In this document: piece by piece, positions 595-16,497 of the stretch
How the letters are laid out: every line of letters starts with the position of its first letter
How positions within the stretch are numbered: the first letter of the stretch is position 1
Source: Balneolaceae bacterium
Lineage (GTDB): Bacteria > Bacteroidota > Rhodothermia > Balneolales > Balneolaceae
Direction: 5' to 3'
NCBI GenBank assembly: GCA_020832225.1
Contig: JAFIFA010000047.1
Coordinates: forward strand, 1 to 33,372
Length of the DNA stretch: 33,372 nt
The notes under the pieces: model-generated
Seen by the model: only the letters and a program-made list of their open reading frames with translations
What the model was told of the DNA's origin: nothing
Database searches by the model: none
Program-made: the position numbers and the translations under genes

Positions 595-2832
595 CTACAG
601 ATTGATTTGAATAGAGAGGTTAACATTCCGCCCCGGTGCCGGCATAGAGTTTACGCTGAGGTGCTCTATATAGAACGTGTTCAGCATATTCTCCATACCA
701 ATCTGCATCGTTACGCTTCTGTTCAACGGCACCTGTGCAAACAGATCGAGAAGTGCGTAACCCCCTGTTTCTGTCTCCAGGCTGTTCTCTTCTGCAATTC
801 TGTTTTGTGAAGCCGCCCATCGAAACCGCCCTTCAAGCTGCACGGACTCAGATACCCTCTGCAGGGATATGTGACCTTTGAAGGGAGGTATCATCGGCAA
901 GGGCTCTTCGAGTTCCTGATGCGTGCCCAGCACATAGGCTATGGATCCGGAACCTCTCCATCGATCACTCAACCTGACAGATGCATCCACCTCGAAGCCT
1001 TTAAGAGTAGCCCGGCCCATATTCTGCATCCGCTTAAAGAGATCATCGGCCCGCAGACCGGCAATGTAGTTATCCATTTGGTTCACCCAAAGTGATAGTG
1101 ACCCGCTAACTCTTGACTGATCACTTCCCAAACGGGTAAATAGTTCTGCCTGAGTGCTGCGCTCCGGCGTCAATTCCGGATTACCGATGTAGAAAAAGCC
1201 ATCCAGAGGCTGATAGATATAGTAACCATACCGCTCCATATGATCGGGAATGCGCGTTCCGCTGCTTAGACTAAATCCGGCAGAGAGCCGGGAACTGATC
1301 TCATTTTTTGCCTTTATTCCCACCTGATAGGCCAGCGCAGTGGGTTCCAGTTCAATTTCACCATTATACTCTGCCCGGTAGGTTGCCCGTGCACTCTCAT
1401 TATTCAGCCGGTTCATACCGGCTTCACCTCTGATGTTTGTGGCAAAGGTCCACCCGGAGCCTGCAAACCAGGTGTGTGAGCCTGAAAAGATCAGGTTCTG
1501 TTGAACCACATCACCCAAATTAACCAGATACATATCTCTGACTGATGGGTCGGTGTGCTCCATCACCATATCGGCAAATGCATCAATTCGAAAACCCTCC
1601 AGAGAGAGATTAAATAGATGGTCACTCCTCGATGCACTTAGCTCGGAGGTAAATCCGGAGGTAACTGTTTCACCATACATCGGCATATACATATTACGCA
1701 TTACCTCCCTATCTCCAACATCCCGGTCGTAATCATCCATCCAGTGTTCAACCCTGTTTATGTAGAGGTTTGTGGTAATTGAGTGAACACCCGTAAAGGG
1801 ATTGCTCCAGGCATGTTCGAGGCCCCCAATGTGTGCATCTGCCCGGCGTGTATCCATGATCATCGACGGATATCCGATTTTGCCGGCAAAGTCGCCGATG
1901 TAGCGCAGATTGAACCGGTGTGATGGTGACGCTTCATAGAGAACGGAGGCCATCACATTCCCCTTCCGAAAACCTGACCCGTCTATTCGCCCTCCCCCGC
2001 CGGGCTGAAGATCTCCCGCATCGCGGAACGTGCCGGATAGCCTGAAGGCCCAATTCTCCTCTCCATGAGATAGACTCCCCTGATAGAACTGCTGGCGGCT
2101 AACCGACTGATACCCTGTCTCTGCTGATGCCCTAAAACCGCTGTTCAATGACGGCCGAACCATGGAGAAGTTCACCGATCCGCCGGGTGCCGTCTGCTTA
2201 CCGGTTCCGTTTTCAAATCCCCTGCCAATCTCTATCGACTGCAGGTTATCGGTCTCCACATATGCGGTTGCAGGATCCATTCCATCTACACAGGCCGGTG
2301 TGAGTCGCATCCCGTCGATCAAAACGTTAACCCGTCCGTCTCTGAGGCCTCGTATAACGGGATCTTTCGCCATGTTGGCACGGGTCACCATATCTAAACC
2401 GGAGATTCCCGACATGTGATCCTCAACAGATCTGGTTTTTGAGCTACCATAGATACCACTATGCTGCATTTGATTACGGTCTGCAGTTATAAGCAGCTCC
2501 TCACCCCGAAACTGTACAGGGACAAGTGCGATCTCCAGCTTTCCATGGCAACTGCAAACCTCACTCAATGGGATCCGTTTACCTGAAAATCCGATGTGGG
2601 AAACCGTCAGATAACTATCCGCTTCCTCAATCTGCAGCTCGAACAGGCCGTTCTTATCTGTTATTGTACCCGACGTTCCATGTTCAGACTGAACATGGAC
2701 ACCGGGGATGCTCTCCCCGGTATGCGCGTGTTTTACCACGCCCTTTATGATTTCATTTAAATTACTGCTCATTACCGCAGCAGGCAGTGACAGCAGTAAA
2801 AGAGTGATCAATATTGCATTCCTAAATTTCAT
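595..2832 (-). CDS. TonB-dependent outer-membrane receptor, OprC/NosA-like, probable copper uptake
   Basis: A 745-aa outer-membrane receptor. The ORF track starts at a TTG (2844), but ATG at 2832 is preceded by a good GGGAGAG ribosome site and opens a clean signal peptide (MKFRNAILITLLLLSLPAAV). Domains in order: CarboxypepD_reg-like beta-sandwich (about residues 30-110), plug (about 130-220, with DPVIRGLRDGRVNVLIDGMR), then a 22-strand-type barrel ending in the aromatic-poor NLSIQINL. The plug carries ACVDGMDPATAYVE. The CxxxM followed by DP-T-Y resembles the metal-binding plug segment of the copper importer OprC, so copper is the best substrate guess; the second half of the OprC site (HxM in a barrel loop) was not found with certainty. 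It is the last gene of a three-gene unit with a His/Met-rich lipoprotein (17 bp upstream) and a small Cys protein, which fits metal handling. Confidence 0.85.
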   Translation of the reverse strand: MKFRNAILITLLLLSLPAAVMSSNLNEIIKGVVKHAHTGESIPGVHVQSEHGTSGTITDKNGLFELQIEEADSYLTVSHIGFSGKRIPLSEVCSCHGKLEIALVPVQFRGEELLITADRNQMQHSGIYGSSKTRSVEDHMSGISGLDMVTRANMAKDPVIRGLRDGRVNVLIDGMRLTPACVDGMDPATAYVETDNLQSIEIGRGFENGTGKQTAPGGSVNFSMVRPSLNSGFRASAETGYQSVSRQQFYQGSLSHGEENWAFRLSGTFRDAGDLQPGGGGRIDGSGFRKGNVMASVLYEASPSHRFNLRYIGDFAGKIGYPSMIMDTRRADAHIGGLEHAWSNPFTGVHSITTNLYINRVEHWMDDYDRDVGDREVMRNMYMPMYGETVTSGFTSELSASRSDHLFNLSLEGFRIDAFADMVMEHTDPSVRDMYLVNLGDVVQQNLIFSGSHTWFAGSGWTFATNIRGEAGMNRLNNESARATYRAEYNGEIELEPTALAYQVGIKAKNEISSRLSAGFSLSSGTRIPDHMERYGYYIYQPLDGFFYIGNPELTPERSTQAELFTRLGSDQSRVSGSLSLWVNQMDNYIAGLRADDLFKRMQNMGRATLKGFEVDASVRLSDRWRGSGSIAYVLGTHQELEEPLPMIPPFKGHISLQRVSESVQLEGRFRWAASQNRIAEENSLETETGGYALLDLFAQVPLNRSVTMQIGMENMLNTFYIEHLSVNSMPAPGRNVNLSIQINL

Positions 2833-2849
2833 AATCTCTCCCAATATCT

Positions 2850-3653
2850 CTAAAAGTCGATTTCAAAAGCCTGCTGATCGATCTCAACTCCATCAATCTC
2901 CAGATCGAAACGAAGCTCCCAGTCGCCGGTCATGTTAAAGTTGACCTGACCGATGTAGAATCCATTCTCCTCATGAACCGGGGAGACATTATTGCTTGAC
3001 CCGTGATCCATCGACGGCATCCACGGTTCAAACTCCATGTTGGCGTTCAGCACCGGCGGAAAGTTCATCATCGACTCCCGCTTGTGGAGAGCTACTATCA
3101 GTTCATTCATCCCTACGGAGGGGGCTTTGGGCCCGACCAGCGTCAGCACATATCGTGACTCATCCTCTGTCATAAAGGTTTTTACACGATTGGAAGGCTC
3201 CACATCTATTTCGATGATTCCATTTGCTTCAAAACCGGTGTGCGCCTGATCGTGAATGGTGAGCTGAAGCTCCCAGGTGCCCATATCGCCTGATGGCATG
3301 GTAAAGATTGCCCAGCCGTGATAGAGATTGTACTCATCATCCCTGTGATGTCCCGGCTCCCCATACGGTGAAGCATGGGAGTGGTGCTCCATATCCATCA
3401 TTGTGTTGAAGTGAAAATGGAGGTTTTCAATCGGTGCTCCATCCTCGTGCACCTCGAACCAGATATCGTTATATCCAACTTCAAGAGGCCGATCTGTGTA
3501 GGCGATCACCGTTACATCATTATCTGTAAACTCACCGATCTTCATCAGATCCGGTTCATTTATGGTCTCGTTGCTGTTTAAGTCGCTGCATGCAGATGTT
3601 AGTACGACTAATAGAAGTATTGCAAAAACAGGTAGTCTTCTAATTGTTTCCAT
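2850..3653 (-). CDS. His/Met-rich lipoprotein with two YtkA/FixH-like domains
   Basis: A 267-aa lipoprotein: the signal peptide METIRRLPVFAILLLVVLTSAC ends in a lipobox with Cys22. Two similar beta-sandwich units follow. In the first (about 40-150) a stretch rich in His and Met (MMDMEHHSHASPYGEPGHHRDD) is followed by GTWELQLTIHD. In the second (about 165-267), MEFEPWMPSMDHGSS is followed by GFYIGQVNFNMTGDWELRFDLEI. The pattern 'Met/His loop, then G-x-Y-x-x-x-V-x-F-x-M-x-G-x-W-E-L' is typical of YtkA/FixH-like domains, often found beside copper and cytochrome-oxidase genes. The loops could bind Cu, which is inference. The gene lies between the small Cys protein and the TonB receptor on the same strand, so it is probably the periplasmic partner of that receptor. 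Confidence 0.75.
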   Translation of the reverse strand: METIRRLPVFAILLLVVLTSACSDLNSNETINEPDLMKIGEFTDNDVTVIAYTDRPLEVGYNDIWFEVHEDGAPIENLHFHFNTMMDMEHHSHASPYGEPGHHRDDEYNLYHGWAIFTMPSGDMGTWELQLTIHDQAHTGFEANGIIEIDVEPSNRVKTFMTEDESRYVLTLVGPKAPSVGMNELIVALHKRESMMNFPPVLNANMEFEPWMPSMDHGSSNNVSPVHEENGFYIGQVNFNMTGDWELRFDLEIDGVEIDQQAFEIDF

Positions 3654-3800
3654 TGTGTATAAGCTGTTTGAATAATCAATTGATCTCTATATCCAGTCTT
3701 AAGCGCATAATTACTCAATCCGGAATGGATAGAGTCTGCCCTTAGTGGTGAGAATTGTTAAGCAGACGGCATTCGTCTGATTTTAGAAGGTGGGTTTCAA

Positions 3801-4163
3801 TCAGCTTATACGCGGAGGGGGGAGATCAATCAGGCTCCAAACCGTGGCAACCTTTTGTTTACAAAAGGGTTGATGTTCTGAGCCAACTACTGCCGCAAAC
3901 GGCACTCGATCAACTTTAGCCAATATGGTCCCGGGATAGTAGTCTGTCAGAGTTCGAAAGTTTTCAGACTGCCTCTCTTGCTTTTCAAGCTGGTTGGTTA
4001 GATAGCAGATACCGTCACAATCTGATTCCGGAACGTTTCGGTTTTCACAAAACAGCTCCATGATGCTCTCTTGGAACAGGTGATACTCAATCAGTGGCAG
4101 CACCGGCTGAATGGCGCCAACCATAAATGCGAGAAGCAATATTTGTGAGTAGAGAACTTTCAT
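3801..4163 (-). CDS. Small exported protein with C...CxGxCYL motif, first gene of the copper-type operon
   Basis: A 120-aa protein. The ORF track begins at a TTG (4190); ATG at 4163 is the better start because it directly opens a hydrophobic N-terminus (MKVLYSQILLLAFMVGAIQP) that can serve as signal peptide or membrane anchor. The mature part has three cysteines in a tight pattern (Cys39, then DCDGICYL with Cys49 and Cys53) followed by a charged helix. Small proteins of this shape are familiar from Bacteroidota upstream of metal-related TonB receptors, but I know of no assigned function. The three cysteines make metal (copper) binding a reasonable hypothesis. The C-terminus has one more Cys and a proline-rich tail (LPPPRIS). 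It is the promoter-proximal gene of the unit, 147 bp before the lipoprotein. Confidence 0.65.
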   Translation of the reverse strand: MKVLYSQILLLAFMVGAIQPVLPLIEYHLFQESIMELFCENRNVPESDCDGICYLTNQLEKQERQSENFRTLTDYYPGTILAKVDRVPFAAVVGSEHQPFCKQKVATVWSLIDLPPPRIS

Positions 4164-4379
4164 ACCTAATGATAACAGAATGTTGCTCAAAAATAAACGG
4201 TATTATTATTTAAACAACCGTTTTAAGATGGCATTGTCTGAATATAAGAATATTTAAGACAAAATAAGCTTATTATTATTCATATAAGCGTTTAAAGTTC
4301 TATTTGATCGTATTTTTCTTGGTTTTTATTAAAGATAAAAATATCTTTTATTTTCATTACATCAAATCAATCCCCTCTA
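4164..4379. promoter_or_regulatory. A/T-rich divergent promoter region with palindromes
   Basis: The region separates the minus-strand copper-type operon from the plus-strand 604-aa gene and must hold promoters for both. It is strongly A/T-rich. Visible symmetric elements are AAACGG (4195-4200) facing CCGTTT (4218-4223) across 17 nt, and a perfect 12-bp palindrome AATAAGCTTATT (4263-4274). Either could be an operator for a metal-responsive regulator; neither matches a regulator site that I recognise. No regulator gene is adjacent. Confidence 0.35.
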
Positions 4380-6194
4380 ATGACAGTTCAGCAACCACAC
4401 CAGTTTCACATCCCCGTTATGGGTACCGGCCACTCCATCGACAGCCCGATCCGGGTTGCCCATCTTGGCATCAGTTCCGTTATCTCCGTGGTGGACGACC
4501 TCTTATGCGAAAAAATCCGAAAGCACTATTCCAAGGAGTTTAACCTGCCATATAAGAATATTGCACGTTCCAGGGCAGATGGCCGGGCAGAACGAATAAC
4601 CGTCTACCTAAATACCGTTCAGAAGATTGTTGAGCAGAAGTTTGAGAGCTTGAAGGAGTGCTCCTTCTACAGCAATAGCGAGAAAGACCGCTACTTCAAA
4701 TTGCTTCCTAAATCTAATCCGTTGCGAAAACTGTATGATAAGCTCTCGACATTGAATGATGAGAGTGAACGTAAGAGGCTAACAGAACAGCTGACCAAGC
4801 TGATGAGACCCGGCGAAATCGAGGTCAACATCATGGCCAAAGTGGATGCGCTGAAACTCGACAGCGACGATCAGCCGATGAGTGCCGAATTCTCAGATGC
4901 GAGTGCTGCACTGCGGGGCTTTGCAAATAGCGACCTCACCTCAAGTGTGGTATTATCAGCAGGGTTTAACCCACGACTCTACAGCTACATCTCGGAGTTT
5001 AAGGATTTCTATCGCGATAGCGCCGGAGAGATCAAAAAGAAGGTTATTCTGAAAGTAAGCGATTTTCGATCCGCACTGATTCAGGGCAAATTTTTGGCCA
5101 AAAAGGGAATTGAAGTTGCCGAATTCCGAATTGAGTCCGGACTCAATTGCGGAGGTCACGCCTTTGCATCCGACGGACATCTTATGCCCGTACTTCTTCA
5201 GGAGTTCAGGGAGAAACGGTCTCAGCTTGTTGATACATTCAGCCCTCTAATCAAAAATTATTATGAATTGGAAGGCTTGGACTACCCAGAGCTCTCCGAT
5301 GAAGAGATATCACCAAAAATCACCGTTCAGGGAGGCATTGGAACCCATGGTGAAATGCGCCGGCTTCTCGACGATTTTGAGATGGATGGGACAGGGTGGG
5401 GGAGTCCGTTTCTGCTGGTGCCCGAAGCGACATGCGTGGATGATTTCACATCAAAACTGTTGGCCAGTGCCGCAGAGAAGGATCTCTATCTGAGTAACGT
5501 CTCTCCGCTCGGCGTTCCGTTCAACAACATTCGGGGATCGGGTTCTGAAATCCACACCCGGGAGCTGATTGAAAAGGAGAAGCCCGGATCCAAATGTCCG
5601 AAAGGATTCCTGGTCTCCAACACAGAATTTACTGATAACCCGATCTGTACCGCATCTGCACAGTATCAGCTTCTCAAGATCAATCAGATTCGGGAAAGTG
5701 AAACGCTAAGCGGTGAGGAGAAGAAGAACCAAACCGAACGGGTGATGGAGAAAACCTGTCTCTGCACCAATCTTGGAACGGGATCGCTGATACGTCTTGG
5801 TATCACAAAGCCCTCATACGGGCGTCAGGCTATCTGCCCCGGGCCCAACATCGTCTGGTTCACCAGGGAGTACTCTCTGGATGAGATGGTCGACCACATC
5901 TATGGGCGCAGGGAGTCGCTTGTGCCCGATGAGAGGCCACACATGTTTGCCAAAGAGCTGACCATGTATGTTGACTATCTTGAGGAACTGGCTGATCAGA
6001 TAGATGATGGTGACAAAGGCGGACAGAATAAGCTCCAAAAAATTCGGAAGAATCTGGAGTCGGGTATGGAACTCTGCCTCGAAATTTCAGACAGGGAGCC
6101 CTACACCGGGGAGAATATCGAGTCGCTGAGGGGAGCCGTTTTTACTCAGAGAGTGAGGTTATCCGCTATTTTCGAAGATTCCCTGGTTCCATAA
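4380..6194 (+). CDS. Uncharacterised conserved protein with nitronate-monooxygenase-like (FMN TIM-barrel) motifs
   Basis: 604 aa, no signal peptide. The N-terminus (IPVMGTGHSIDSPIRVAHLGISSVISVV) resembles the start of FMN-dependent TIM barrels of the nitronate monooxygenase/FabK group ('API..M.G.STP.LA.AV..AG'). Around residue 254 it has GLNCGGHAFA after GIEVAEFRIES, comparable to the family's 'A..V.A.G.EAGGH' segment that carries the active-site His. Around residue 318 it has GGIGTHGEMRRLL followed by GTGWGSPFLLVPEA, comparable to the phosphate-binding 'GGI....... A..GA.GV..GT.F'. A helical insert (about 60-150) and a Cys-containing C-terminal part (CPKGF, NPICTASAQYQ, KTCLCTNLG, ICPGPN) are not normal for the family. 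I recall close homologues annotated only as hypothetical. The start lacks a Shine-Dalgarno. It faces the Moco cluster convergently with a 41-bp gap. Substrate and the role of the cysteines are unknown. Confidence 0.6.
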   Translation: MTVQQPHQFHIPVMGTGHSIDSPIRVAHLGISSVISVVDDLLCEKIRKHYSKEFNLPYKNIARSRADGRAERITVYLNTVQKIVEQKFESLKECSFYSNSEKDRYFKLLPKSNPLRKLYDKLSTLNDESERKRLTEQLTKLMRPGEIEVNIMAKVDALKLDSDDQPMSAEFSDASAALRGFANSDLTSSVVLSAGFNPRLYSYISEFKDFYRDSAGEIKKKVILKVSDFRSALIQGKFLAKKGIEVAEFRIESGLNCGGHAFASDGHLMPVLLQEFREKRSQLVDTFSPLIKNYYELEGLDYPELSDEEISPKITVQGGIGTHGEMRRLLDDFEMDGTGWGSPFLLVPEATCVDDFTSKLLASAAEKDLYLSNVSPLGVPFNNIRGSGSEIHTRELIEKEKPGSKCPKGFLVSNTEFTDNPICTASAQYQLLKINQIRESETLSGEEKKNQTERVMEKTCLCTNLGTGSLIRLGITKPSYGRQAICPGPNIVWFTREYSLDEMVDHIYGRRESLVPDERPHMFAKELTMYVDYLEELADQIDDGDKGGQNKLQKIRKNLESGMELCLEISDREPYTGENIESLRGAVFTQRVRLSAIFEDSLVP

Positions 6195-12954: not shown

Positions 12955-13180
12955 CATCCAATACTTTACGGGCACGGAGATCACGTATTACCGCATAGAT
13001 GTAGAGCACCACTCCTGCAAACATAATTGGCATTCCGAGAAATACCCCCAGCCCAACGCTCCAGGCCTGAAATCCGGCAATCAGAAACATCAGCACAAGT
13101 AACATACCGGCCATAGCGAGAAAAACGGCCGTTCGAACCAGCTTGTCCACATCACCCAATTGTTCATTCTCTTCACTCAT
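12947..13180 (-). CDS. Small two-helix membrane protein of the nitrate reductase operon
   Basis: 77 aa from ATG 13180, which has a clear GGAGAA ribosome site and overlaps the stop of the cytochrome gene (ATGAGTGA). The ORF-track start at 13210 lies inside the cytochrome coding region. Two hydrophobic helices (AVFLAMAGMLLVLMFLIAG and VGLGVFLGMPIMFAGVVLYIYAV) are joined by a short loop. The ends are charged (MSEENEQLGDVDK at the start, RDLRARKVLDDD at the end). I do not recognise a family. Position suggests an accessory subunit anchoring the reductase or cytochrome, but the sequence has no haem or metal motif. Confidence 0.7.
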   Translation of the reverse strand: MSEENEQLGDVDKLVRTAVFLAMAGMLLVLMFLIAGFQAWSVGLGVFLGMPIMFAGVVLYIYAVIRDLRARKVLDDD

Positions 13181-14128
13181 TGAACTTCTCCATAAGTTTG
13201 GCCAGATCATCGGCGCTGATTTCCATTAGCTCCTGAGAGAATACATCCGGGTGACGGTCCGGCACATTCTCTCTTTCAGCAGGTGTTGGGTGTGCAGGTC
13301 CGTGGCAGGAGCTGCAGCTAACCTCATCGGCCCTCATCTTGTCAGAGAGCGCAATATGACTCGGCACGTCGTTGAACTTTTGGGTACCGCCGTGGCACGC
13401 CATGCAGTTTTGATTGGGGTAGCTACCTGAGAAGCTGATCGGCTCATCCCAGGTGCCGGTTACATAGAGCAGCCAGTGCCGGAAACCGTCCCGCTTCCCT
13501 TCAAAGGTACCGTGTGCACCATAGGTAGTGTGGTATAGCAGTGGTACTCCGAAATCCATCGGTTCTGATAGTGTTTAGCCGCCATGGTTGTGCTCTCTTC
13601 GTCGAAGAGATCATTTACGAAAGGATCCATAACATGACAGCTGGCGCAGGACTCCACGGTTTTTGTGGTTTCAAGCACTGTTGTACCTGTACTCAGAACC
13701 ACCACAACCGGCAGTGCAAACATCGAGACAATCATCAAACTTCGGTAGCTGAGGCGGCTGATGTTGTCTCTTCTGAAAAACTCGATATAGATAAGAATGA
13801 GTATGGCTGCAACTATAGAGAAAATTCCGGCACGCCGCATCAGCTCTCCAACGGTGACTCCCGAATCCGCTTCACTGGCAACACGAGGTGCCGGGTCGGA
13901 CTGAGCCGTTGCATAGAGTGGGATCACGTTTCCGTAAACGGTTGTACGGGTCTCCTCTGGTTCCATATTCACCCCGGCATGAATCTCCTCCAGGGACGGC
14001 TCATTGGGTTGAATGTCACCATCAACAACATAAACACCTATCAGGGCACTGGTTATACCGAATAGAACCAGCAGCGCAATTGAAGCCTGCAGAATCCAAT
14101 CCGGTCTTTTTGTTGGCTCTTTTTTCAT
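13173..14128 (-). pseudogene. NapC/NirT-like tetrahaem cytochrome c, disrupted by a 4-nt loss in haem motif 2
   Basis: Two ORFs of the track are one gene. The first half, from ATG 14128 (GGAGA ribosome site; MKKEPTKRPDWILQ), has three membrane helices and the first haem motif CASCH, reaching KHYQNRWISEYHCY. The second half resumes in another frame with HTTYGAHGTFEGKRDGFRHWLL, then the haem motifs CMACH and CSSCH. The family expects CYxCHTTYG here. The sequence around 13531-13535 (minus strand TGCTATACCACACT) lacks four bases relative to a reading TGC TAT ACN TGC CAC ACT, so the frame shifts exactly within the second CxxCH. As sequenced, the product would stop early and lose three haems. The role would be passing quinol electrons to NapA. 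A sequencing or assembly error is the alternative. Confidence 0.88.
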
Positions 14129-14157
14129 AGTCTCCGGTTTTAGACCATTCCTGATTG

Positions 14158-16497
14158 TTAAACTTTCTCGATTGTGACTGCACAACGCTTGTAATCCGGC
14201 TGACGAGAAAACGGATCTACCGCATCACTCGTAATCTTGTTAACCAGATGCTTGGCAGAGTGGAACGTCGCAAAGACGAGGCCCTCACGAATATCCCCGG
14301 TAATACGGGTTACAAAGTCGGCCTCGCCCCGGCGGCTTATCACTCGTACCTCGTCCCCTTCACTGAGTCCTGCAGCCTGTGCATCTGCGGGGTGAACTTC
14401 CAGAAAATCGGTACGCACACCCTGAAGGTCTTTAATCCCTCTGGTAATCGTCTCCGTATGCCAGTGCTCCAGTACTCGTCCGGTTGTGAGCGTCAACGGG
14501 TATTGATCATCCGTTGGCTCATAAGGAGGATCCTGTTCATGCAGGTAGATAATCGCCCTTCCGTCGGGTCTGGCGTAGAAATCGAGGCGTGCATCTTCAT
14601 TACGCTCCATAGGGTCCGATCCCGGCACAAAACGTCTGCAGGTTCCGGGATGGTCTTCATCGGGGCATGGCCACAAGATCCCGGGCTGGCTTTTAAGTCG
14701 TTCGTAGGTGATTCCTTCAAAATTGTAGTACGATTGGCCTGAAATCTTTCGCCACTCGTTCCAGATATCTTCCTGGGTTCGGTTGGGGAAGAGTTCAGAG
14801 TGCCCTAAGCGATCGGCCAGGTTGATCAGGATATCAAAATCGCTGCGCGCTTCGCCCGGCGGATCGGTAAGTTTTGGAACATAGTGGTAGCGGCGTTCCG
14901 GCTGACTAAAGACACCGCTCTTCTCAACCCACATCGCTGCCGGAAGCACAACATCGGCATACTTTGTGGTCTCAGTAGGGTGGAAAGCGTCTGCTACAAC
15001 CACAAACGTGCGTTCCATTGCTTCCCGGTAAGGCAGGATATTAGGGAGTGAGTGAATTGGATTGGTCGACATGATCAGCGCACACTCCACATCACCCTCA
15101 TACATCGCCTGAAACAAGGCCATTGTGTGATATCCGGGATTTGGACTAATCGTGCCCTCAGGTACATTCCAGAGCTCCTCAACCTCACGCCGGTGTTCGG
15201 GATTTGCCACCACTCTTCCCGTTGGCAGGGCGTGTGCCAAGGCTCCTGTATCACGGATTCCGCCACCCGCATTGGGTTGTCCGGTTAGTGAAAAGGGAGT
15301 GGCTCCCGGCCTTCCAATCTGCCCAGTAAGCAGGTGCATCGCCATCATCAGCCGGTTTGAAGCGGTTCCCTGCGTCTGCTGGTTAAGGCCCATGGTCCAG
15401 AACGACATGGTAGCGGGTGAGCTTCCAAAGCGAAATGCTGCCTCCCGTATCTGTTCGGGCGAAACCCCACACGTTGCAGCTGCTCGTTCCGGCTTATAGT
15501 TCTCCAGGTTTTCCCGGAATTGGTCCAGTGATATTCGGTCTGATCCCTGCTGAAACCTTAGATACTCTTCAACCATCTCATCATCAATCATTCCGCGCCG
15601 GAAAAACTCGTATATCATCGAATTATAGAGCGATACATCGGTACCCGGGCGGATCTGCAGATGCAGGTCGGCACGCTTCGCCGTGTTGGTTTTTCGCGGA
15701 TCCACGACAATGATAAATGTATCGGGATTGGTTCGCTTTCGGTCTCTGACGCGCTCCCAAACTATTGGGTGGCAATCTGCCATGTTGGATCCGGTAATAA
15801 TGAAACAGTCGGCATGGTCGGTATCCTCATAGCAGCTCATCGGCTCATCTACAACAAAAACAATGGTGTAGCCAACGGCTGCTGATGCCATGCAGAGGCG
15901 TGGGTTTCCATCCACATTATTTGTGCCTATTCCCGCTTTGAAGAGTTTGTTTGCGGTGTAGCTCTCTTCGGTGAAAAGCTGTCCGCTGCCGCAGTAGGCA
16001 ACACTATCCGGCCCCTTATCGGCAATGGCCGTGTTGAACCTTCTTGCAATCAACTCCATCGCCTCCTCCCAGCTGGCCCGCTCCAACTCGCCATTTTTAC
16101 GAATCAGCGGATAGTGCAGCTGGTCTTAGGCGTAAAGAATCTCACGGTTTAGTATCCCCTTGATGCAGAGACGGCCGCGATTATGGGCGTCGGGATCACC
16201 TTTTACGTCAACAACCTGACCGTTATTCATGCCGATCAGCATACCGCAGCCGGTACCGCAAAATCTACAGACACCGCGATACCAGCTATCCACGTCAATT
16301 ACATACTGACGCTCCCAAAGTTCACCACACCCCGCCATCAACGAACCGGTAAAGACACCGGCGGCAGAAAGGGAGGCCAATCGCATAAGCTCCCGGCGCG
16401 ACAGCCCCTTGTACTCTTCGGAAGGATCATCCGGTGATGAGCCTCTCCCCTTTTCCCCTATACCATTAAAATTTGAGCGATCTTTATCTTCTCTCAT
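14158..16497 (-). pseudogene. napA: Periplasmic (NapA-type) nitrate reductase, interrupted by an in-frame TAA
   Basis: Two ORFs of the track lie in the same frame and are separated only by TAA at 16126-16128. The N-terminal piece (123 aa) has a twin-arginine signal (LSRRELMRLASLSAAGVF) that ends in LMAGC, possibly a lipobox. It then carries the 4Fe-4S cysteines CRFCGTGC and RGRLCIKG (Cys77, 80, 84, 111). Right after REILYA comes the stop, then DQLHYPLIRKNGELERASWEEAM, where NapA proteins read 'YGKDRL..PL'. AAA (Lys) to TAA is therefore the simplest change. The rest (about 655 aa) is a full bis-MGD domain with NPRLCMASA (Cys ligand to Mo), GSNMADCHPIVWERV, and a complete C-terminal dinucleotide-binding domain. 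No restart ATG directly follows. Without suppression the enzyme cannot be made. Confidence 0.9.

Follow-up and report, generated by a model that had tools for sequence, protein, structure and literature searches.

Which reaction is carried out by a conserved protein of about 600 residues that has neither a family model nor a name? This question is raised by an open reading frame in a contig of a Balneolaceae bacterium (JAFIFA010000047.1, assembly GCA_020832225.1), of which we have analysed a stretch of 33,372 nucleotides, here called the window. The frame lies on the forward strand at positions 4380-6194 and encodes 604 amino acids. An initial annotation, made from the sequence alone, had assigned the product to an uncharacterised family with a barrel like that of nitronate monooxygenases (NMO), a helical insert and a cysteine-rich C-terminus, and had suggested an Fe-S or flavin oxidoreductase encoded between copper-type and Moco genes. 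The ORF list and the translation confirm the coordinates, the length and all motifs named there: GLNCGGHAFA spans residues 254-263, TVQGGIGTHGEM residues 315-326 and GTGWGSPF residues 337-344, while NPIC ends at C423, CLC contains C460 and C462, and CPGPN begins at C486.

Distribution of the family

Relatives of the protein were found in 52 of 59 related genomes and in 75 of the 198 genomes with which the phylum was sampled. Nearly all of these matches consist of one full-length open frame free of internal stops and, since such relatives dominate the matches in both genome sets, the reading frame cannot be a product of chance. The family extends to records titled Neomarinimicrobiota, Planctomycetota, Lentisphaerota, Hydrogenedentota, Flavobacteriales and Pedobacter, with identities of 46-55%. 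Judged by the sequences compared, it is an unnamed, slowly evolving and mostly single-copy family. One genome harbors, in addition to an intact copy, a second one that is broken by stops and frame changes (G148:C1:4371179-4372904).

Searches of Pfam, NCBIfam, PHROGs and PDB sequences with the 604-aa protein returned no family match, and the family is uncharacterised, as had been proposed. The NMO model PF03060 matched 0 of 34 members at E values up to 1, and among the NCBIfam models neither PfaD nor FabK matched the 604-aa protein, with nothing near a cut-off. A tblastn search of plasmids gave no match to the protein, and a literature search returned nothing on the family. More than one third of the sampled genomes of the phylum encode a conserved enzyme of about 600 residues that lacks a family model or name.

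Fold and conserved residues

The AlphaFold2 model, built from 34 sequences (pLDDT 88.7, pTM 0.90), is an alpha/beta barrel of the NMO type with helical inserts, and the model contains two of these where one had been noted (Table 1). In a Foldseek search of the PDB the top rank was taken by FabX of H. pylori (E 4.7e-11), and the top entries reached TM scores by target length of 0.62-0.66. PfaD, other trans-acting enoyl reductases, PA1024, FabK and nitronate monooxygenases follow in this ranking. A second model, calculated for a 44% identical Pedobacter member, falls into the same fold group, with PfaD at the top and FabX in third place. Since both predicted models match the same group of structures, placement in the NMO/FabK/FabX superfamily is secure at the level of predicted fold, and the barrel predicted earlier has held up in this fold check. 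As to FabX or PfaD, the predicted fold taken alone leans towards FabX without deciding the matter.

Conservation of the named cysteines, the other check that had been suggested, was found as well. All 63 full-length sequences have C257, C406, C423, C460 and C462, and 62 of them also have C486; in the sole exception (L062) the cysteine sits one alignment position later. C43, C352 and C566 vary among the 63 sequences and C94 is nearly private. The catalytic GGH motif and the GG of the phosphate loop are also invariant in all 63. In the alignment of 34 sequences the invariant positions include N150, M152, SAG (193-195), E252-S253-G254, N256, GGH (258-260), T315, QGG (317-319), E349, S375-P376, H506 and R519-P520. 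In several distant members the alignment of the closest match ends before residues 520-601.

Table 1. Features of the 604-aa coding sequence and of neighboring genes in the window.
Feature	Position	Strand	Basis
Complete coding sequence (604 aa) of the unnamed family	4380..6194	+	ORF, homologues, alignment
Helical insert between barrel strands 1 and 2, residues 40-145	4497..4814	+	AlphaFold2 helices 40-53, 68-92, 101-107, 114-122, 128-141
VNIM strand, residues 146-152; N150 corresponds to FabX FMN ligand N99	4815..4835	+	N150 and M152 invariant; joint alignment; PMC8626469
GLNCGGH, residues 254-260; H260 corresponds to FabX catalytic H182	5139..5159	+	invariant in 63/63; alignments
Second helical insert, residues 269-310	5184..5309	+	AlphaFold2 helices 269-297, 307-310
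TVQGGIG, FMN phosphate loop, residues 315-321	5322..5342	+	T315, Q317, G318, G319 invariant; G318-G319 correspond to FabX G220-G221
GWGSPF, residues 339-344, aligned with FabX QMATRF	5394..5411	+	joint alignment, conservation
SP, residues 375-376; S375 corresponds to FabX S273, holder of the catalytic His	5502..5507	+	invariant; joint alignment; PMC8626469
Cysteine domain, residues 400-495, putative [4Fe-4S] site: C406, C423, C460, C462; C486 possible alternative	5577..5864	+	invariance; alignment with bridging-family cysteines
C-terminal helices, residues 520-601, least conserved	5937..6182	+	AlphaFold2 helices 522-540, 546-570, 581-601
Moco genes moaE, moaA, moaCB, moeB, mogA, downstream of the 604-aa ORF	6236..10813		gene neighborhood
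NapA-like nitrate reductase, interrupted by in-frame stop	14158..16497	-	gene neighborhood

A true nitronate monooxygenase that detoxifies nitronates would fit the barrel, the catalytic GGH and the phosphate-loop GG, all of which the protein shares with FabK and the NMO proteins of PF03060, and NMO structures do occur among the fold matches. However, members lack a sequence-level match to these families, the protein is about twice as long, and four of its five invariant cysteines belong to a C-terminal domain that sets it apart from FabK and NMO. The fold ranking favours FabX and PfaD, and NMO chemistry requires O2, while the gene context described below is one of low oxygen. We regard this explanation as most improbable.

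Relation to FabX

FabX of H. pylori is an acyl-ACP dehydrogenase/isomerase of unsaturated fatty acid synthesis, which binds FMN and whose C300, C304, C308 and C320 hold a [4Fe-4S] cluster; the cluster domain stands in place of the NAD(P)H site of FabK (PMC8626469). Its catalytic H182 is held by S273, and the FMN ligands are N99, E175, Q240 and T243 (PMC8626469). Direct profile comparisons of the 604-aa family with one FabX and one FabK sequence gave weak matches, and that with FabX was not significant. The sequence link to FabX becomes significant only via a bridging family of about 420 residues from anaerobic Bacteroidota (alignment A2: L129-L134 and L138-L161). The barrel of these proteins is 36-45% identical to that of H. 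pylori FabX, and their C-terminal part reads NC...KC...KTCLC...CWTC. They occur in 42 of the 198 sampled genomes, with FabX proper (L137) in one more, and match only generic NMO/FabK models.

Comparison of the 604-aa family profile with A2, a single comparison and not a database search, gave a probability of 82% (E 1e-5) over residues 131-464; with a larger A2 set the values were 81% and 1.2e-5, again for a single comparison. The controls, reversed A2 and ten unrelated families, reached at most 0.5% probability. In this profile alignment H260 falls on H204 of the bridging family, and C406, C423, C460 and C462 fall on C319, C332, C358 and C360, so that the KTCLC motif is included. The 420-aa proteins are shorter, lack the large inserts and have an extra CWTC after CLC, in place of which the 604-aa family has the single C486. 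They also match the FabK and NMO models, unlike the 604-aa family.

A joint alignment with a FabX-type protein (H. pylori numbering) places C406 on C300 and C423 on C320, the first and last cluster cysteines, S375 on S273, N150 on N99 and G318-G319 on G220-G221. H260, S375 and N150 are thus invariant counterparts of the catalytic histidine of FabX, its serine partner and an FMN ligand. The one-loop pattern C-x3-C-x3-C-x11-C of FabX is absent from the 604-aa family in this alignment, C304 and C308 having no counterpart in the loop; the remaining two putative cluster cysteines would come from CLC farther on. E175 and Q240 are not kept either: E252 stands one position early, with S253 in the E175 column, and G339 replaces Q240. 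The layout, with an NMO-type barrel, a catalytic histidine in GGH and a cysteine domain after the barrel, resembles that of FabX (HP0773) and UfaA (NGO1024). Since this FabX-like layout comes without the strict cysteine pattern, we have not filed the protein as a FabX; it also differs in length (604 versus 363 residues), in its two helical inserts and in its C-terminal helices. In our reading, the family forms a new and distant branch of the FabX/UfaA kind, in which the protein is larger and the cysteine domain has been rebuilt. This kinship, together with the bridging family and the low-oxygen respiratory context, goes beyond the initial annotation, and it brings to light another family like FabX, in which the cysteines follow the CLC pattern. 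It also bears out the suggestion of an Fe-S or flavin oxidoreductase: by homology the protein probably binds both, as FabX does.

The same folds raise the question of an enoyl reductase like PfaD or FabK, which would reduce a trans-2-enoyl thioester and whose Fe-S domain would draw electrons from ferredoxin or a flavoprotein and not from NAD(P)H. Among the structure groups, PfaD ranks second for the 604-aa protein and first in the case of the Pedobacter member, and PfaD and the trans-acting enoyl reductases of polyketide synthases share with our protein the barrel and the large size. However, they show no match to it in sequence, its conserved cysteine domain aligns with that of the FabX-like bridging family, the PfaD and FabK models do not match, and inspection of the neighbors recognised no genes for PUFA or polyketide synthases near family genes. 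Such a reductase therefore seems unlikely to us.

Genomic context

Most copies of the gene look monocistronic on inspection of their neighbors. Where neighbors recur, they share low-oxygen themes in unrelated lineages. In Fodinibius-type genomes the family gene follows nosD-nosF-nosY-hemN-ppdK-ctaA-RIC, in other genomes nosZ-nosL-nosD-nosF-nosY. At some loci it adjoins a copper ATPase and ccoNO, and in Pedobacter a gene for a FixL-like sensor comes next, then hemN, a copper ATPase gene and ccoNO. RIC, NosD, NosZ, HemN, NirK, Rrf2, CtaA and CcoNO were confirmed by family models; NosF, NosY, NosL, PpdK and FixL were named by reading of the sequences. With related genomes counted repeatedly, NosZ lies within 15 kb of the family gene in 11 of 39 genomes that have both (0.29 expected), in four taxonomic families. 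HemN is this close in 9 of 60 genomes (0.45 expected), related genomes again being counted repeatedly. Inspection of the neighbors recognised no fab genes near family genes, and upstream FNR boxes showed no excess over shuffles.

These neighbors may suggest a role outside fatty acid metabolism: the protein would be an Fe-S flavoprotein that acts in low-oxygen or nitrosative metabolism, for example as a reductase for NO-derived or nitro compounds or in damage repair during denitrification. The di-iron repair protein RIC, NirK, NosZ and an Rrf2 regulator are found among them, and the proximity to NosZ fits as well. However, many carriers of the family have no NosZ, other copies adjoin the cbb3 oxidase and hemN, which points to low oxygen rather than NO, and the nearest folds are acyl-ACP enzymes. 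We consider this role rather unlikely.

In the window itself, Moco genes do follow the 604-aa ORF, as had been noted. The location given there is confirmed in part: the upstream gene described as copper-type encodes a TonB receptor, whose scores against heme and copper models are about the same and stay under the cut-offs. The receptor belongs to a cluster at 595-4190 (reverse strand) with a His-rich lipoprotein-like ORF and a small Cys-containing ORF, which is also present at two other loci (L040, L050) and is possibly a metal uptake unit. Farther downstream, a TAA stop in frame at about 16126-16128 divides the NapA-like gene. Cytochrome-type ORFs at 13173-14185 overlap one another in different reading frames, which looks like the effect of a frameshift; these features suggest either a pseudogene or an assembly error. 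The source genome has nosZ and hemN elsewhere.

Two further kinds of neighbor were seen. Genes similar to tryptophanase/tyrosine phenol-lyase, sometimes two of them, adjoin the family gene at many loci (L048, L049, L051, L053, L055, L064 and L115; also L031, L033, L042 and L058), and pass the cut-off of the tryptophanase subfamily model, not the specific ones. An unannotated membrane protein of about 410 residues recurs near low-oxygen clusters (L051:11934-13196, L109:1508-2740, L078 and L065); it has no Pfam or NCBIfam match.

Co-occurrence across genomes

Among the 198 genomes, 75 encode the 604-aa family, 43 a FabX-type protein and 3 a FabA-like protein, with zero overlap. Mutual exclusion with FabX-type proteins and FabA might reflect replacement, but the pattern is suggestive only, since it follows taxonomy and most FabX-type genomes belong to one family. 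Desaturases of PF00487 are found in 55 of the 75 carriers versus 1 of the 43 FabX-type genomes; in 20 carriers, the source genome included, no desaturase of this family was found at E 1e-15.

HemN is present in 60 of the 75 carriers versus 34 of 80 other genomes, with the FabX-type genomes left out, and 15 carriers are without it. For NosZ the odds ratio of co-occurrence with the family is 2.7, with P 0.24 among desaturase carriers, and co-occurrence alone is a weaker signal than physical proximity. Clade II NosZ is absent from 36 of the 75 carriers, and a strict denitrification gene was rejected on this ground. A link to anaerobiosis by way of NrdD was likewise rejected, there being no association.

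Carriers without NosZ, HemN or a PF00487 desaturase, and the scattered neighbors at many loci, would also suit an oxidoreductase of acyl thioesters or 2-enoyl compounds that serves some catabolic or lipid pathway with no part in membrane unsaturation. The superfamily evidence is the same for such an enzyme, but respiratory neighbors recur in several lineages, and it appears to us distinctly unlikely.

Proposed function

On homology and predicted fold, the protein is probably an oxidoreductase of the NMO/FabK superfamily with predicted FMN and [4Fe-4S] cofactors. Its likeliest job, by analogy with FabX, would be an acyl-ACP desaturation step at low oxygen, to which we give a probability of roughly 0.4. 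The bound cofactors, acyl-ACP substrate, product, direction of the reaction and electron acceptor are those that we infer as follows. The barrel would hold FMN, with H260 as the catalytic base, and C406, C423, C460 and C462 would hold an Fe-S cluster at the position of FabK's NAD(P)H site; C486 may be an alternative ligand. H260 would take a proton from the acyl thioester and FMN would accept two electrons. By the FabX analogy the substrate would be a medium-chain acyl-ACP, and the new double bond may move to cis-3. The cluster would then relay the electrons to an acceptor other than O2 under low-oxygen conditions. The enoyl-ACP product could seed unsaturated fatty acids without O2 when an O2-dependent desaturase cannot work, as has been reported for gonococcal UfaA.

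In favour of this reading we counted the top FabX match among PDB folds and the ranks of PfaD (first) and FabX (third) for the Pedobacter model, the invariant cysteines and FabX-type residues, the A2 profile match with its clean controls, the proximity of NosZ and HemN, and the lack of overlap with FabX-type proteins or FabA. We also counted the gonococcal FabX homologue. Anaerobic synthesis of unsaturated fatty acids is reported to require it, with an acceptor that is unknown there (PMC11300592), and it is induced anaerobically in an organism that is a denitrifier (PMC3032703). Against the reading we counted the non-significant direct FabX profile match, the changes at two cluster cysteines, E175 and Q240, the lack of recognised fab neighbors and of an FNR box excess, the taxonomic course of the exclusion, the carriers without NosZ (36 of 75), HemN (15) or a PF00487 desaturase (20), and the use of O2 by H. 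pylori FabX in vitro.

A wider proposal is more tentative, and we think it less probable than not: the family may be the missing oxygen-independent enzyme of unsaturated fatty acid synthesis in facultatively anaerobic Bacteroidota and Balneolota, a FabX-type protein with a rebuilt cluster site that would pass electrons to the respiratory chain and not to O2, and that would be used alongside denitrification and other low-oxygen respiration. The kinship with FabX allows specific cofactors, FMN plus [4Fe-4S], to be predicted for an unnamed protein, and suggests a role that can be tested. That role would bear on the question of how fluid membranes may be built during growth on nitrate or N2O by bacteria that depend on desaturases requiring O2, or that seemingly lack such desaturases.
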